Shown here piece after piece: positions 39,760-46,869 of a stretch of 64,000 nucleotides of DNA; position 1 is the first letter of the stretch; each line of letters starts with the position of its first letter. The position numbers were made by a program, and so were the translations under genes. The notes below the pieces were generated by a model. The model ran no database searches. It was not told the origin of the DNA and saw only the letters and a program-made list of their open reading frames with translations. This DNA comes from an uncultured Pelagibacteraceae bacterium (GTDB taxonomy: Bacteria > Pseudomonadota > Alphaproteobacteria > Pelagibacterales > Pelagibacteraceae): NCBI GenBank assembly GCA_902537845.1, contig CACBDC010000005.1, positions 1 through 64,000 on the forward strand, read 5' to 3'.

Positions 39760-40289
39760 AGATAATTAAAACTAAAATTAAAGATTTACTCATCATTAAG
39801 CAAAAAAATAATTTTGATAAAAGAGGAAATTTAAGAGAAACTTTTAATGATAAGATACTTAAAAAAAAATTTATATTTGAATATTGTACATCGTCTAAAG
39901 CTAACTCCTTACGTGGATTTCATTTTCAACACAAATTTCAACAAGCAAAATATATTAATGTTTTAAAGGGAAAGATAATGGATTGTGTTATTGATTTAAG
40001 AAAGAATTCAAAAACATTTGGTAAAATATTTAAGATAATTCTCTCAGATAAAAATTGTCTAAGTTTATATGTGCCAAAAGGATTCGCTCACGCATATTAT
40101 AGTTATGAAAAATTAAATATAGTTTATTATAAATTAACAAATTATTATAAACCTCAATACGAAAGTGGTATCAATTTATTAGATAAAAAAATTAAAATTA
40201 AATGGCCTAAAAGGAATTTTAAAATTTCAAAAAAAGATAATGGGCTTCCTTCTTTTGAGGAGTTTTGTAAAAATTATAAATTTTTGTAA
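39756..40289 (+). CDS. rfbC: dTDP-4-dehydrorhamnose 3,5-epimerase
   Basis: 177 residues, cupin fold. FDKRGNLRETF, SLRGFHFQ (catalytic His), VIDLRKNSKTFGK, YVPKGFAHAYY and the late YYKLTNYYKPQYE (catalytic Tyr region, then ESGI) are RfbC hallmarks. It follows rfbD with 4 bp overlap and is last in the operon. It is convergent with the DUF4422 gene, overlapping it by 16 bp. Confidence 0.92.
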   Translation: MKIIKTKIKDLLIIKQKNNFDKRGNLRETFNDKILKKKFIFEYCTSSKANSLRGFHFQHKFQQAKYINVLKGKIMDCVIDLRKNSKTFGKIFKIILSDKNCLSLYVPKGFAHAYYSYEKLNIVYYKLTNYYKPQYESGINLLDKKIKIKWPKRNFKISKKDNGLPSFEEFCKNYKFL

Positions 40290-41095
40290 TCTGATAAGTC
40301 TTTTCCAAGAATAGGAATCTCTTTAACTCTAAAATTTTTATTAAACCAATAGGACATAAATCTTTCTGCAAGAAAACCGTAAATTCTCTGTTGACCATAT
40401 TCTGAGGTATCATTAAAACCAAAAAGACTTTCACATTTTTTTAACCAAGGAAAAATTGTCTCATAATATTTTTTTAGCAAGTTTGACTTACAAATAAACA
40501 TATTGTGAGGATTAAATGCATTATTATTTTCCATATAATTTTTAAAGTCCTCTTGATGATTTTTTTCAAGAAGATTTATAGCTTTAGACAAATTTCCTTT
40601 ACCATGGAATAAATCAAAATGTAATCTCAAATTTCTTTTTTTTTTATTAATAAATAAATTTGGTTCTTTTAAAAATGAAAAAAAATGATTTTTAAAAATT
40701 TTTGAAATTTTATAATTCTCTACTGAAAATTTTTCGCCTAATATACATTCATATTTCATATCTTCATTGTTGATTTCTTTAACTATTAATGTTTGAAAAC
40801 TTTGAAAATTAATATTTTGATCATAAATTTTATTTTTAATGAAAAATTTTCTGTACTGACAAAATCCTACCCAATCTGTTTTAATTTTATCTAAATAATT
40901 TTTCCACAACCAATAATGAAATGTATATTCTCCATAAAAAGGGTTTTTTTCTGAAATATTTTGATGACTTTTATCTGTAAAACATTGATTACTAAATTTT
41001 TTTTCTCCAAGACCAACCGGTATGTAAGATAATTTTTTAATAACTTCCTCGTGATCAGGATCTAATGTTAAGCAGAATATTGAAATATTTGACAT
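40274..41095 (-). CDS. DUF4422-type putative glycosyltransferase
   Basis: 273 residues. IPVGLGEKKF, NISEKNPFYGEYTFHYWLWKN and WVGFCQYRKFF reproduce the order seen in DUF4422 capsule proteins, which look like retaining GT-A enzymes (NISEKN, Y-R-R/K-F). A late HNMFICKSNLLKKYYETIFPWL segment fits the family. It has no signal peptide. It begins only 6 nt after the CCA end of the tRNA on the same strand, with a leader of six A residues and no ribosome-binding site. Confidence 0.72.
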   Translation of the reverse strand: MSNISIFCLTLDPDHEEVIKKLSYIPVGLGEKKFSNQCFTDKSHQNISEKNPFYGEYTFHYWLWKNYLDKIKTDWVGFCQYRKFFIKNKIYDQNINFQSFQTLIVKEINNEDMKYECILGEKFSVENYKISKIFKNHFFSFLKEPNLFINKKKRNLRLHFDLFHGKGNLSKAINLLEKNHQEDFKNYMENNNAFNPHNMFICKSNLLKKYYETIFPWLKKCESLFGFNDTSEYGQQRIYGFLAERFMSYWFNKNFRVKEIPILGKDLSDYKNL

Positions 41096-41184: not shown

Positions 41185-42063
41185 TTAATTAAAGATTAAT
41201 ATATCTGTATAATTATTGTTTACAATATATTCATCTTTTAAATTTTCTAATTCCTGTACAGAAAAATTTTTTTTACGTTCATTTTTTTTTAAATCGTAGA
41301 AATATTTATAATTTCTAATTAAATGTGACATTTTTTTAATCCATTTTGCATTAAATAACGAGGGCATGAATTCTGTAATTATAGGAATTTTTTTTAATAT
41401 TGTTTTTCTTGCTCCTAAAAAGATCTCGGGTTCGTGGCCTTGAGCATACATAAAAATAAGAGAGTTGCCCTTATTATAACTTTTTGTATATTGATCTAGT
41501 TGATAGCAGCTAATTTCATGCGCGTTCTTCTCTTTTTTATTCAATATTCTACAATCACCTGAATTTACTCCAAATTGTTTTATAAATAATTTTTTTTTTT
41601 TATCGCTCAAAGCAATATTATGAGTACTAATTTTATCCTCAAGAGAATTTAAAAAAATATTCGTTGTTAAAAGTTTAAAATTTATAGGGAAAGGTTCAAA
41701 CGCAATTGCTTGATTGAAAAGTTTACTTTTCACTGCTGGAATACAGGTTGAGCCTACATGGGCTCCAATATTAATTAAGTTAGAAATTGATCTTTTTTTT
41801 TTAAGTAGTTTACAAGCCTTCTTTAAAACGTGAAAATTCCATGAATTATTTATGTACAAATATTTTGCAATATCATCTCCTGATTTCAACAGGTATTTTA
41901 TTTCACTATTGTTTGATAATAAATATTGTCTGTCAAATTGATTTTTATACTGCGCAGAATTTATTGATTGTATAAATCTTTTATTTTTTATTTTTGAAAA
42001 TAAAGATAAGGTCTTATAAACCACCGATTCAAAAACTCTAAAAATTCTTTTATTAAAAAACAT
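41185..42063 (-). CDS. FkbM-family SAM-dependent methyltransferase
   Basis: 292 residues. The SAM site is LINIGAHVGSTCIPAVKS at about residues 95-112. AIAFEPFPINFKLL and the N-I-A-L-S-D block (HNIALSDKKK) are FkbM features, and LIFMYAQGHEPEIFLGA is the matching motif of the C-terminal half. FkbM enzymes usually O-methylate sugars or polyketides. It starts 3 bp after the VTC-domain stop, so it belongs to the same operon as VTC, CotH-like and DUF4956. Confidence 0.82.
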   Translation of the reverse strand: MFFNKRIFRVFESVVYKTLSLFSKIKNKRFIQSINSAQYKNQFDRQYLLSNNSEIKYLLKSGDDIAKYLYINNSWNFHVLKKACKLLKKKRSISNLINIGAHVGSTCIPAVKSKLFNQAIAFEPFPINFKLLTTNIFLNSLEDKISTHNIALSDKKKKLFIKQFGVNSGDCRILNKKEKNAHEISCYQLDQYTKSYNKGNSLIFMYAQGHEPEIFLGARKTILKKIPIITEFMPSLFNAKWIKKMSHLIRNYKYFYDLKKNERKKNFSVQELENLKDEYIVNNNYTDILIFN

Positions 42064-42066
42064 AAA

Positions 42067-42660
42067 TTATAAATGGTATAATTTTTCCATGCCAAAACAA
42101 TATTTTGAAAATCTTATTCTTTGGATTGGGAAATCTTTTATTAATTCATCGACATCTTTATTAATTGATGTTTTTAATTCAGCGATTACTCTATCATCAT
42201 AAATTTGAAAATTAGTTTTGTAATCTCTATATTGTATGTTGGTATCAACAGAAACTCTTACGTCTTTAACTTTGAAATATTCTCTTAAATATTTCACATA
42301 AATTTTTGGTAAACATAAGCCATATTGCTCATCAAAAATCCCAACTTTTTTTATTTCTTCAAAAGCTTTTTTGTCTATAATTTTTCTAGTTTTATATCTA
42401 CCCTCTACTGATGAATTTTTTATTTCATAATAATATTTATGATCATCACTTGACGGATAATTTCTTATTCTAATTTTTTTCCTTGGTACCATACCTTCAA
42501 TTGAGTCATTATATGTTTGAAGATTTTGATTATCAAAATACAAACTTTCTATTATCCTGGGTTTGTGAAGCGTTTTACAAGAATGAGTATTTAAAAAATG
42601 TTTAAAATCAATTAAATTTTCATTTTTTATATAAAGTTTATCCTCGATTCTAAAACTCAA
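42067..42660 (-). CDS. VTC-domain (polyphosphate polymerase-like, tunnel metalloenzyme) protein
   Basis: 197 residues. It begins with FRIEDKLYI (acidic/basic first strand, Glu6, Lys8), then RKKIRIRNYP, YYYEIKNSSVEGRYKTRK (Glu79, Lys81, Arg88, Lys90), IAELKTS (Glu161, Lys163) and the terminal RFSKYCFGME. The alternating charged strands and final S-K-Y signature are those of the VTC catalytic tunnel domain, which in yeast polymerises ATP phosphate into polyphosphate. Here it is a soluble stand-alone domain between CotH-like and FkbM genes. Enzymatic activity is inference. Confidence 0.82.
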   Translation of the reverse strand: MSFRIEDKLYIKNENLIDFKHFLNTHSCKTLHKPRIIESLYFDNQNLQTYNDSIEGMVPRKKIRIRNYPSSDDHKYYYEIKNSSVEGRYKTRKIIDKKAFEEIKKVGIFDEQYGLCLPKIYVKYLREYFKVKDVRVSVDTNIQYRDYKTNFQIYDDRVIAELKTSINKDVDELIKDFPIQRIRFSKYCFGMEKLYHL

Positions 42661-42674
42661 GATTGCTCCTAATA

Positions 42675-45062
42675 TTAATTTTTTGATTTATTGTTTTTAA
42701 CATAAATTTTTGAAAATTTATCAAAACTTGTTTTTGTTTTAGATTTTAAACAGATCAGTTCATCTATCTCGATATATCCCCCCATAAACTCCTGTTTTTT
42801 TTTGTAAGCGGAAATACAAGTATTCGAGTCACTTATCGAAGCATCTTTTAAAGTAAGAACTGAACTATCTTTCGTTGCAACTCCAATATTAGCGATTTGA
42901 ATATTAATATTTTCAAGATCAACTTTTGATTTTTCACCTATCGAAAGTCCTTTATCTCCACAATTTTTTAACTCTAAATTTTTTAAAATGTATTCTCCAT
43001 AAGAAAAATCTACACAGTCATTAATTGCATTTGAAATTTTTATTTTATTAAAACTTACATTAGAGAAATCTACATCTAATGCATCGCTAAATGAATTCTC
43101 TATATTTACACTTTCGATATTACCACTTGAATTTATAATATTTATTGTATCCTCACAATTAGAGTTATTAGCTTTAATTTTAAGATTTGTTAGTTTTAGG
43201 TTAATGAGAGAAACACAGCCTGTTAACCCAAGAGTGTCTATAGGATATTTAGGAGGTAATATTTTTGAATTGTTAGTTCCTTGATTAAGTTGAGTGCTCA
43301 TTCCAGTGTAATAAATAGAGTAATTGTCTAAATTTCCATCAATCAAATAAACTTTTGATCCTAGCTCTGTCTGTTTGATTGTTATATTTTTCAAATTTTC
43401 ATCTATTTTTACTTCGATGCCATCCTCAAAAAAAATATTTGTTTTTTCTACTGAAATTTTATTTTTGTAGTTACTTTTTTTTTTTAAACTATTTAAATCA
43501 AAATTTTGACCAACAAATTGAAAATTTTTCTTATCGATTTTTAGCTCTCCTTCTAAAAGATCTGCAAATTGATCACTATTTAACACGAGTTTTTCACAAT
43601 TTTTAAATGCTACTTTACATTTTTCTAATTGATAATTCTTATTAAATTTTACTAGAAGAACTTCAGTGTCTATGTCTTTTATATTTTCATTAAATTTAGA
43701 TAATACATTATCAATTGGTTTAAATTTATTATGCAAAATTAATTCGTTGTTGTCAGTTTGAAGGTAGTTACTTTTAATCTTTGATAAATTTTTTTTTATT
43801 TTATTTATTTTTTTTTTCAGTTCTATATCTGTTAATATAAGACCATGTACTTTTAATCCCTTATTAAAGCTTAATAAATTAATTTTATCTAAATCTTTTT
43901 CTAACTTTAAAAAAGAATCTTCATAAAAGGTTGAAATTGGCAAACGATAACTTGCTGTTGTTGTGGTGGGTGTGTCTCTATCAATTTCTGGATTTGCATC
44001 ATAGTTTATTGGTTCAAATAAATTTTCTACTGCATTCCAATAAAATTTTCTAGCGTCTGGACCTAATGCATGTTGACTGTTTGTAGCTTGCATTAATAGA
44101 TTATATTTTTCAAGACGAATAATATTTGATTTATCAAATAATCCTAAAAGTTCATTATCTAAATCGTAATCAAAAAAGAAATAATTATTTTTATCGTCTT
44201 GAAACCTATTTGCCCAATATAGGTAAATTAAGTTTAAATTATTAATTGTTTTTAAAAAAATTTCTTTGTGCACATCGCCTTTCTCAATAACTTTTGAATT
44301 TGTTGACTTGGTCAGCATGACTTTCATACTTTTGTTTCTTAAAAATGGCGTTCCTACAGACCAGTTACTTTTATTGTCGTCAGGTATGTCTTTTACTAAT
44401 TCAAAGAAATATTTTTGATCTCCCTCAAGAATAGGGCCCTCTCTTCTATTATTAAATTCGAGTAATTCTTTCGCAGCTTTTTCTTGAAATAACATTACGG
44501 ACTCAGTTTCATTAACTCTTGCATGTACTTTTTTAGATCTAGGTGCCAGATATCCTAATTCTCTTAAAAGATTTGTTTGAATGATAACGTCTTCCAAATT
44601 ACCTCTTACATCTGGCTTAAATAATTTAAATTTTGTAATCCCTTTTATATTTCCATAAGTAAGTATTACGTCTAAGCTTTGAATAATTGAATTTCCCTTA
44701 AGAGCAATATGATCTTTTGCATCCCCGCTATGTCTAACTCGGCCGGTCAAAATACAAAAAGAATCATCTTCAAATGTTACTTTAATAGTTGCATCAAATC
44801 TTTTCTTAAGATTGTTTGGTATAAATCTTGTATTATGTGTAATAATTCTGACGTTATTCACCGTCCAATTTCGGTAATTATGGGTATCTATCTCTATTTT
44901 TTTTATTGATAAATTGTAATAGTTTAAAAAAAAACTTTTTGTTAGTTCACTGGAGCAACCTAAAGGTAAATTTGAAATATTATTTTTTGCAAGTAGGTTA
45001 TAATAGTTTAAACTTGAAAAAAAAAAGATTATAAAAAGTGTTAAAGCTTTTACTTTTCTCAT
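42675..45062 (-). CDS. CotH-kinase-like protein with C-terminal parallel beta-helix
   Basis: 795 residues with an N-terminal hydrophobic signal segment (residues ~4-25). Residues ~90-420 resemble a CotH-type atypical kinase: RVRHSGDAKDH, KFKLFKPDVRGN, FFFDYDLDNELL and INYDANPEIDRD provide acidic residues in the order expected for metal/ATP binding. Residues ~560-770 have repeated short N/D/S-rich strands (for example NCGDKGLSIG, IKISNAINDCVDFS) typical of a right-handed parallel beta-helix, like surface or carbohydrate-binding proteins. It is exported or surface-facing by prediction. Gene neighbours DUF4956 and VTC strengthen the CotH call. Kinase activity is unproven. Confidence 0.7.
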   Translation of the reverse strand: MRKVKALTLFIIFFFSSLNYYNLLAKNNISNLPLGCSSELTKSFFLNYYNLSIKKIEIDTHNYRNWTVNNVRIITHNTRFIPNNLKKRFDATIKVTFEDDSFCILTGRVRHSGDAKDHIALKGNSIIQSLDVILTYGNIKGITKFKLFKPDVRGNLEDVIIQTNLLRELGYLAPRSKKVHARVNETESVMLFQEKAAKELLEFNNRREGPILEGDQKYFFELVKDIPDDNKSNWSVGTPFLRNKSMKVMLTKSTNSKVIEKGDVHKEIFLKTINNLNLIYLYWANRFQDDKNNYFFFDYDLDNELLGLFDKSNIIRLEKYNLLMQATNSQHALGPDARKFYWNAVENLFEPINYDANPEIDRDTPTTTTASYRLPISTFYEDSFLKLEKDLDKINLLSFNKGLKVHGLILTDIELKKKINKIKKNLSKIKSNYLQTDNNELILHNKFKPIDNVLSKFNENIKDIDTEVLLVKFNKNYQLEKCKVAFKNCEKLVLNSDQFADLLEGELKIDKKNFQFVGQNFDLNSLKKKSNYKNKISVEKTNIFFEDGIEVKIDENLKNITIKQTELGSKVYLIDGNLDNYSIYYTGMSTQLNQGTNNSKILPPKYPIDTLGLTGCVSLINLKLTNLKIKANNSNCEDTINIINSSGNIESVNIENSFSDALDVDFSNVSFNKIKISNAINDCVDFSYGEYILKNLELKNCGDKGLSIGEKSKVDLENINIQIANIGVATKDSSVLTLKDASISDSNTCISAYKKKQEFMGGYIEIDELICLKSKTKTSFDKFSKIYVKNNKSKN

Positions 45063-45069
45063 TGTGAAA

Positions 45070-45687
45070 CTAGTTTAAAACTACATTAATTTTTTCAATA
45101 TCTTTTTCTTTAGAAAGTTCATCTCTAAATTTTTCTAAAGATTCTTTATTTGCAAAATTTAATCTGTAGTTATATTGTTTGCTTTCAAAATCGCTAAAAT
45201 AATTTACTAAATTTTCATGTTTTTCAATCTTATCTAATCTTTTTTTTGAAACGATTTCTAAAGTATTGCTAACATTGCCCTCGTTAAATGAGACATTATA
45301 AAATGATTTTCCAAATTTTTTGGAGAAAGTTTGAACTAATTTGACTATCAATATTATAATTATTGTACATACAATTAATTGAATTGCCCATTTTGTCCTT
45401 ACACTTGCGGCTATTCCAATAGTTATTAAAGCAAAGTAAACTACTAACTCTAGCGCACTTTTTACTGGATGCCTAAATCTTACAATCGATAAAGCTCCAA
45501 TCATTCCTAATGATAACGCAATATTACCTGAAATAGTTTTTGTTATTATATAAGTAATTAAAGGAAGTAACATGAAAGTAACAGTCTGAGCATGTGATTT
45601 TGCCCAAGCTTGACCTGTAAAAGTTAGTGAAAATCTTAAAAGAATTCCGCTTGAGACTAACAGTATGATTGGCTTTAATTCATCCAC
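45070..45687 (-). CDS. DUF4956 membrane protein
   Basis: 205 residues. Four to five hydrophobic helices lie in residues ~5-125, containing SIVRFRHPVKSALELVVYF (the F-R-x-P-x-K-x-x-x-E signature of DUF4956 membrane proteins). A soluble C-terminal domain of about 80 residues follows (from SFNEGN to the end). It is first gene of the operon DUF4956, CotH-like (7 bp), VTC (14 bp), FkbM (3 bp). It could be the membrane channel or anchor that partners the VTC and CotH-like proteins, by analogy with the separate membrane part of yeast VTC; that is inference. Confidence 0.8.
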   Translation of the reverse strand: MDELKPIILLVSSGILLRFSLTFTGQAWAKSHAQTVTFMLLPLITYIITKTISGNIALSLGMIGALSIVRFRHPVKSALELVVYFALITIGIAASVRTKWAIQLIVCTIIIILIVKLVQTFSKKFGKSFYNVSFNEGNVSNTLEIVSKKRLDKIEKHENLVNYFSDFESKQYNYRLNFANKESLEKFRDELSKEKDIEKINVVLN

Positions 45688-45774: not shown

Positions 45775-46869
45775 TTACAATTTTAATTTATTTTTTAATT
45801 CTTCCAAGTTTATCTCGATATCTCCAGCCTGATTATTAAAATTAATTGTTTTAGGCATAACACTAATATCATAATAGATATGTTTATTAGCCTCTGCCAA
45901 ATTCTTTATTACATCACCTGCTGAATTAGGTCTTATTTCAATAATTTTACTTCCTTGTTTGCAAAAAACAATATTAGCAAAACCAGCTCCATGAAGACCA
46001 ATGATCTCATTAGCATTATAAAATAGCGCAACTTGATCAACAAAACTATAGTCGCTCATTGTTAAATTTTCATAACCAAAATTTGATAATATATTTTCTA
46101 CCTCCTCTTTATTTATAATATATCTTAATGAGGTTGCGTCTTTTCTATTAATGTAAATCTTTTTCGGAAAGTTTTTTATCTTAGATTTCGTAACTGCTTT
46201 TTCTAAGAATTTTAAATTTAGATACTTTGAAATCCAAATTGGTATCTTCAAAGAATCGACATTTGGATCATTTAAAATAGTATATGGATGTGAAGTAATA
46301 ATTATTTCTCTTGCATAAAAGTGTCTTAATTTTCTACTCGAGAGTCTTTTTTTTTCTTTTATATCTAACAAATCTAAAGTTTCTTTTTGAAATCTTGTAT
46401 TTAAATCTGGAAATAAATAATAATCTGGATCTAAAGTTTTTTTTTCAAAAATATTTAATCTCGGCAAAACATCAAACATCCAATGCCAATAATTAGAATT
46501 ACCACCTCCGCCAGTTAACAGTGAAAATACTGCACCATTTATTTTTTTTCTAAATCTTGGTGTCCCTTTTGAAAAAACTGAATTTTTAAGGCAATCAACA
46601 TTAGTATTATTTCTTAATTGAAAAGATGGACCATCAACAATTTTATTATTCTTTATAATCGCTGTATCGTGAATTCTATCCGTATAAAATGAACAACTTT
46701 TACAATTATAAATATTATAATAATTTTCGTCTATTTTGACCTTTGTAAGAATTATATCTTCATCATCAATATGTGATGTTTTTCCATCCACAGTTCCATA
46801 TATAGTTTTAAAAAACTTATATGAAATTGATTTGAAATAATTTTGTAAGATTTTTTTATTATTTAACAT
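45775..46869 (-). CDS. glycosyltransferase family 61 protein
   Basis: 364 residues. GGGGNSNYWHWMFDVLPRL (residues ~114-132), IYINRKDATSLR and EIIGLHGAGFANIVFCKQGSKIIEI are the GT61/DUF563 motifs (the H-W-x-x-D and HGAG-L/F-x-N elements). Such enzymes transfer xylose, GlcNAc or other sugars. It lies alone on the minus strand between DUF4956 (87 bp) and the divergent GT9-like gene (61 bp). Confidence 0.85.
   Translation of the reverse strand: MLNNKKILQNYFKSISYKFFKTIYGTVDGKTSHIDDEDIILTKVKIDENYYNIYNCKSCSFYTDRIHDTAIIKNNKIVDGPSFQLRNNTNVDCLKNSVFSKGTPRFRKKINGAVFSLLTGGGGNSNYWHWMFDVLPRLNIFEKKTLDPDYYLFPDLNTRFQKETLDLLDIKEKKRLSSRKLRHFYAREIIITSHPYTILNDPNVDSLKIPIWISKYLNLKFLEKAVTKSKIKNFPKKIYINRKDATSLRYIINKEEVENILSNFGYENLTMSDYSFVDQVALFYNANEIIGLHGAGFANIVFCKQGSKIIEIRPNSAGDVIKNLAEANKHIYYDISVMPKTINFNNQAGDIEINLEELKNKLKL

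Follow-up and report, generated by a model that had tools for sequence, protein, structure and literature searches.

A minus-strand DUF4956, CotH-fold and VTC gene trio of SAR11 bacteria: a stand-alone cassette with a possible role in extracytoplasmic polyphosphate use

The analysed window comprises 64,000 nucleotides from an uncultured SAR11 bacterium of the Pelagibacteraceae (GenBank assembly GCA_902537845.1, contig CACBDC010000005.1, positions 1 to 64,000). Three neighbouring genes on its minus strand were found to constitute a stand-alone cassette that is gained and lost and that occurs in several phyla outside the Pel loci. They encode a 205-aa membrane protein of the DUF4956 family with a GTG start (45070–45687), an exported or membrane-anchored 795-aa protein in which a CotH kinase fold is joined to a beta-helix (42675–45062), and a soluble 197-aa VTC tunnel domain lacking both SPX and a membrane part (42067–42660). 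The intergenic gaps are 7 bp (DUF4956/795-aa protein) and 14 bp (795-aa protein/VTC), as confirmed from the open reading frames (ORFs). The VTC gene starts with TTG, and its relatives have ATG at the same position. A first-pass annotation had described this arrangement, the integral membrane protein, the exported beta-helix protein and the soluble tunnel domain correctly. Its claim of an undescribed system could not be upheld, since CotH, a polyphosphate polymerase and DUF4956 were already in the literature as accessory genes that Gram-positive Pel loci carry as a group (PMC7112168) and deletion phenotypes have been reported (PMC12345266). The new findings are the trio outside Pel in several phyla, a His in place of the CotH catalytic Asp in the Gram-negative class, and, among the partners, a phosphate transporter and a fusion of PelG with CotH. 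We tentatively read the trio as an envelope cassette complete in itself, in which polyphosphate would pass from VTC through DUF4956 to the CotH/beta-helix protein.

The VTC gene was detected in 22 of 101 genomes of the genus. A CotH-like gene adjoined it at all 26 VTC loci examined there, and DUF4956 belonged to the same run unless the contig ended; the exception was L063, where DUF4956 is encoded on the opposite strand at a distance of about 3 kb. The same genome has a second, paralogous trio of identical gene order on contig C3, flanked by GalE-like and isopropylmalate-dehydrogenase-like genes (named by inspection). Identity between the two copies of this genome is just 30–39%, whereas copies in other genomes share 56–74% identity with those of the window, so each copy travels as a set. 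The pairwise distances of the three proteins correlated with r of 0.96–0.97, to which the shared species history contributes. In the window's clade the trio is situated among glycan genes. The glycan island proposed as its setting is not essential, because in another SAR11 clade the trio lies between a TENA-like gene and the sulfur-related TauE or adenylylsulfate-reductase genes. These flanking genes are directly adjacent in eight genomes that lack the trio there, among them the window's own (contig C1), and the three carriers compared contain exactly DUF4956-CotH-VTC between them. This clean empty site identifies the trio as a stand-alone cassette. At two loci (L029:1423-5799 and L030:5357-9751) an extra gene for a protein of about 340 aa, of the same family in both, was found between DUF4956 and CotH.

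The linkage was also evident as a pattern of co-occurrence. Among 385 alphaproteobacterial genomes, VTC was found in 7, DUF4956 in 8 and both in 6 (Fisher p 4e-11), and all six co-occurrences had DUF4956 and VTC at one locus. In 14 control genomes the same three carried both genes. A set of 80 named DUF4956 loci, picked by similarity to the window's DUF4956, had VTC within 3.5 kb in 63 cases and both VTC and CotH in 51; the CotH counts are approximate because the profile broadened during the iterations, and Pfam confirmed CotH in the examples scanned. These loci belong to Bacillota, Bacteroidota, Verrucomicrobiota, Planctomycetota, Elusimicrobiota, Campylobacterota, Cyanobacteriota and Proteobacteria. 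Two Prochlorococcus single-cell genomes (L077, L078) carry the trio, with a DUF4956 about 40% identical to that of SAR11; a transfer of the trio between these marine lineages is suggested. A phage or viral origin was rejected: no match to the trio was obtained in phage records, nor in IMG/VR by the pattern used. The one match in plasmid records concerned DUF4956 only.

DUF4956 and VTC are the core of these loci, and the exported partner differs by lineage. In one alphaproteobacterial family a gene for a PHO4 phosphate transporter comes directly after the adjoining DUF4956 and VTC genes at two of three loci, one in each of two genomes (L161:5621-8772 and L163:4023-7012), both without CotH nearby; the third locus, L162, is a second copy in one of the genomes and has no PHO4. 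In Virgibacillus the pair is followed by a Cthe_2159 carbohydrate-binding protein. CotH and PelG, the exporter of the Pel polysaccharide, were combined in one ORF at three Paenibacillus loci (L082:3020-6130, L083:2887-6153 and L097:3068-6175; 1036, 1088 and 1035 aa, respectively; Pfam-confirmed for L082), and the kinase fold is thereby tied directly to polysaccharide export. With a phosphate transporter in one lineage and an exported polysaccharide in others, the constant core is therefore associated with both kinds of partner.

The Pel accessory group resembles the SAR11 trio in having the same three families contiguous, with an exported CotH, a soluble VTC and a membrane protein with a C-terminal ACT-like domain. 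In Streptococcus intermedius the homologues are SIR_1594, SIR_1593 and SIR_1592, and the arrangement was stated not to be found outside Pel loci (PMC12345266). The SAR11 trio differs in standing alone, not beside pel genes, and in the fusion of its CotH, with His for Asp228, to a polygalacturonase-like beta-helix. PelG was not found in the window's own genome, which is 75% complete, and was not seen near the trio at the named SAR11 and Prochlorococcus loci within the available flanks. At the other loci PelG was sought within about 7 kb only, and some Bacillota counted as lacking it may have it farther off.

The window's VTC protein matched Pfam PF09359 with 86 bits (cut-off 23), and a profile of 24 SAR11 VTC sequences recovered yeast Vtc4 with an E-value of 2e-11. 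The acidic and basic strands and the final SKY were all present (RIEDK, PRKKIRIRNY, YEIK and RFSKY). Vtc4 residues K200, R264, R266, K281, R361, R373, E426, K428 and K458 have identical counterparts in 24/24 SAR11 VTC proteins and in 61/61 other bacterial VTC proteins encoded near DUF4956. The sole mapped tunnel position not kept throughout the 61 others was 455, which is Arg in 22 of the 24 SAR11 sequences. Retention of the tunnel's basic residues and linkage of the families beyond this genome, on which the first-pass annotation had staked its proposal, were both borne out, the linkage being strong in many phyla. K458 of Vtc4 is catalytic (PMC4641920), and the R264A/R266A/E426N substitution inactivates the enzyme (PMC9911596). 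The chain is guided in Vtc4 by four basic residues, at the place of which hydrolytic tunnel enzymes have four Glu (PMC4641920). Both chain-guiding positions that could be mapped are basic in the window's protein (R4 and K163), pointing to the polymerase type. Like the yeast VTC complex (Vtc1/Vtc3/Vtc4), the trio combines a membrane partner with a tunnel domain whose active-site residues agree with those of yeast. It differs in that no yeast-type fusion of tunnel, SPX and membrane domains was found, the window protein being the soluble 197-aa domain only and the membrane part having a gene to itself; no relation between this membrane part and that of yeast was seen in sequence, and an exported partner is added.

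The DUF4956 protein scored 45 bits against PF16316 (cut-off 30.6). Its AlphaFold2 model, based on 48 sequences, had a mean predicted local distance difference test (pLDDT) of 86 and contained helices at residues 4-23, 32-52, 56-69, 78-96 and 98-124, which are five predicted membrane helices. The C-terminal residues 139-205 form a ferredoxin-like domain resembling PII-like/ACT domains (Z about 8). The GALSIVRxR motif was invariant in the 48 sequences across phyla; the invariant residues were G61, G64-A65-L66-S67-I68-V69-R70, R72, F85 and G91, and K76 was nearly so. In the topology and pore that we infer, R70, R72 and K76 would face the cytosol, as would the C-terminal domain. For the membrane half no solved fold occurred among the matches listed, which were taken up by the ACT/PII-like half, and a new fold is not implied by this.

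The 795-aa protein gave no Pfam match up to E = 1, and a sequence-profile search of solved structures with the whole protein yielded nothing significant. Four of its 20 relatives matched CotH (PF08757, best E 3e-12). The AlphaFold model (pLDDT 84, predicted template modelling score 0.84) consisted of two distinct parts. Residues 1-25 (44988–45062) are predicted as a signal peptide or anchor from the sequence and from a helix at residues 2-26 of the model, and a hydrophobic N-terminus was present in the 20 members listed. Residues 52-434 matched Bacillus cereus CotH (5jd9) with a VIA Z of 18.8 over 305 residues and a root-mean-square deviation of 4.4; for 5jda the Z was 18.2, and the Foldseek match to CotH had an E-value of 2e-9. 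The CotH-fold domain was delimited as residues 52-437 (43752–44909).

The CotH-kinase-like residues claimed in the first-pass annotation were thus substantiated as a fold and not as the catalytic aspartate. In the account of Nguyen et al. 2016 given in PMC7821199, Asp228 and Asp251 are required in B. subtilis CotH; the two are 23 residues apart in the B. cereus sequence, as expected. In two alignments His331 of the window's protein (codon 44070–44072) occupied the Asp228 column, which makes an ordinary ATP kinase doubtful and phosphotransfer uncertain. Asp355 (codon 43998–44000) probably replaces Asp251; the register differed between the two alignments, and the assignment was made because members with PIEWD or PIQWD bridge both forms. 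The combination of His at the first and Asp at the second position was found in 41 sequences, and the His-bearing members were from SAR11, Bacteroidota, Prochlorococcus, Campylobacterota, gammaproteobacterial, Elusimicrobiota and Planctomycetota sources. PelG-linked CotH proteins had Asp at both positions in 11 of 13 cases, and the remaining two were not aligned there. Four SAR11 rows had Glu, not His, at the catalytic position; this subgroup comprises L028, L056, L057 and L059 (L028 and L057 being the same locus) and has the gene order DUF4956-VTC-CotH. His331, Asp355, Glu194, Asn184 and a GD..DH motif were invariant or nearly so in 20 members, and this conservation speaks for an altered yet functional site rather than a decayed one. 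The likeness to the spore-coat kinase of B. subtilis and B. cereus (5jd9/5jda) consists of the fold, a conserved Glu and probably one active-site Asp; the differences are the His at the catalytic Asp, the beta-helix, the predicted signal peptide or anchor and a host that is no spore former.

Residues 529-795 (42678–43478) were modelled as a right-handed beta-helix of the polygalacturonase/epimerase kind (VIA Z about 20). Eleven of its positions, mostly Asp, were invariant over several phyla, and the invariant Asp/Lys/Glu ladder includes D638, D660, D663, D665, D682, D703, K704, E710 and D732. A single-sequence search with the beta-helix gave weak matches only. Its profile matched the endopolygalacturonase 1k5c with an E-value of 0.02, below significance alone, and in this weak alignment D660, D682, K704 and K731 fell on the columns of the GH28 catalytic motifs NTD, DD, GHG and RIK. 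The protein is akin to GH28 polygalacturonases and beta-helix lyases and epimerases in its fold and, as far as the weak alignment holds, in these conserved acidic and Lys columns; it differs in having K704 in the GH28 His column and in a sequence similarity under significance. A carbohydrate-active site is suggested by this alignment, which taken alone does not reach significance.

In the preferred reading, the VTC domain would polymerise phosphate from ATP in the cytosol, for which its conserved active-site residues speak; this step is considered fairly probable. By analogy with yeast VTC, DUF4956 would assemble into an oligomeric pore in the membrane, its cytosolic mouth being basic (R70/R72/K76), and would thread the chain outward under regulation by the cytosolic ACT/PII-like domain. 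Provided that polyphosphate is made, its movement across the inner membrane by this protein is likely. The exported CotH/beta-helix protein would then take the phosphate outside, where ATP is absent, for use on an envelope or secreted glycan bound or cut by the beta-helix. Use of polyphosphate on an outside glycan in any form is rated as rather probable if both preceding steps hold. The most specific form, a polyphosphate-driven extracytoplasmic glycan kinase in which the His-bearing CotH fold transfers phosphate to a glycan held by the beta-helix, is quite unlikely; a literature search for polyphosphate as the donor of extracellular kinases found nothing. Besides the match of VTC to Vtc4, this envelope pathway is favoured by the linkage of DUF4956 with VTC, by the PHO4 and PelG-CotH arrangements, by the changes in Pel level and aggregation when the DUF4956 and CotH homologues of S. 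intermedius are deleted (PMC12345266), and by the correlated distances of the three proteins. Taken as a whole it is the best of the readings and yet less likely than not. Several observations weigh against it. His331 stands in the column of the CotH catalytic Asp; E6 is present at the Vtc4 T198 position in every bacterial VTC examined, a place where hydrolytic tunnel enzymes are also acidic; several Bacteroidota loci have CotH and DUF4956 with no VTC within 3.5 kb. No altered phenotype was reported for the mutant of the VTC homologue SIR_1593 (PMC12345266), and a literature search found no reported activity for any bacterial VTC protein.

The His in place of the CotH catalytic Asp in the Gram-negative class is also compatible with polyphosphate itself being the product, kept in the periplasm or at the surface, the CotH/beta-helix protein acting as a non-catalytic holder that tethers the chain to a glycan; in SAR11 this could be an external phosphate store or a surface polyanion. 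Such an explanation accommodates the PHO4 transporters beside DUF4956-VTC and the presence of the trio in both SAR11 and Prochlorococcus, two groups in which extracytoplasmic phosphate builds up in an unexplained way (PMC7250820). The same paper, however, says that bacteria make no periplasmic polyphosphate and that the store is labile phosphate. The trio is found in only about a fifth of the genomes of the genus, and the conservation of His331, Asp355 and Glu194 is higher than a decayed domain would show. A stored or tethered chain is judged a serious but improbable alternative. The conserved E6, taken with the PII/ACT-like domain of DUF4956, would fit a VTC protein that is a tunnel-type triphosphatase or nucleotide enzyme and not a polymerase; together with DUF4956 it would sense the nucleotide or phosphate state and regulate a surface protein or polysaccharide output. 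In S. intermedius, loss of the DUF4956 gene raises Pel and loss of the CotH gene lowers it, both losses cutting aggregation (PMC12345266), and this opposite effect looks regulatory. R4 and K163 are nevertheless basic, as are their counterparts in Vtc4 but not in hydrolases, which have Glu there (PMC4641920), and the presence of an exported partner next to a membrane protein and a cytosolic enzyme speaks for delivery more than for pure sensing; we regard the sensing role as unlikely.

Gain and loss at variable sites, as seen in the patchy presence and the empty site, would also suit an anti-phage cassette or another kind of defence system. There was no relevant PADLOC match, and the homologues act on biofilm polysaccharide (PMC12345266), which leaves defence very improbable. 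That the three genes are chance neighbours without a common function could be proposed from the location of the window's copy in a glycan gene island. The unbroken linkage over the SAR11 loci, the paralogous trio, the exact three-gene empty site, the alphaproteobacterial co-occurrence and the matching gene distances contradict this, and chance neighbourhood was rejected as scarcely credible.

If the envelope pathway is true, bacteria have a portable, PPK-independent means of polyphosphate synthesis and inner-membrane transfer, the work of an exported kinase-fold protein where ATP is absent is explained, and DUF4956 gains a testable role. The trio, earlier reported from Pel loci only, is a general module that many phyla share, the most numerous bacteria of the ocean among them. 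The cassette offers a concrete candidate, albeit for a minority only, to account for the extracytoplasmic phosphate of SAR11 and Prochlorococcus (PMC7250820). PPK1 was not found in the window's own genome. Within the genus it was rarer among VTC carriers (6 of 22) than among the other genomes (43 of 79; p 0.03), a difference that genome incompleteness or lineage could explain.

The genes surrounding the trio in the window are also on the minus strand and lie outside the cassette. An FkbM-type methyltransferase gene (41185–42063; PF05050), of a family not common to the other loci compared, begins 3 bp downstream of the VTC gene, and therefore the transcription unit probably runs beyond the trio. 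Farther downstream lies a DUF4422 gene (40274–41095; PF14393), a recurrent neighbour in the window's clade and at L059, and upstream of the trio a GT61 glycosyltransferase gene (45775–46869; PF04577), likewise recurrent in that clade. No NCBIfam model matched among the seven proteins scanned.

Two long ORFs considered as VTC-DUF4956 fusions were rejected: that of L110 is an N-terminal PelG-like part with DUF4956, and that of L135 resembles a frame read-through. In two genomes of one genus (L164:4811-5545 and L165:268-981), DUF4956 without VTC nearby stands beside a protein of 352–353 aa without a Pfam match. A CYTH tunnel protein as a replacement of VTC in Bacteroidota was found only at L101, the next genes in L125 and L128 being unrelated. 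The CYTH-type protein of L101 (10676-11695), a locus without VTC, is encoded directly after CotH and has a signal peptide and a C-terminal membrane segment; an extracytoplasmic location would be unusual for a tunnel enzyme.

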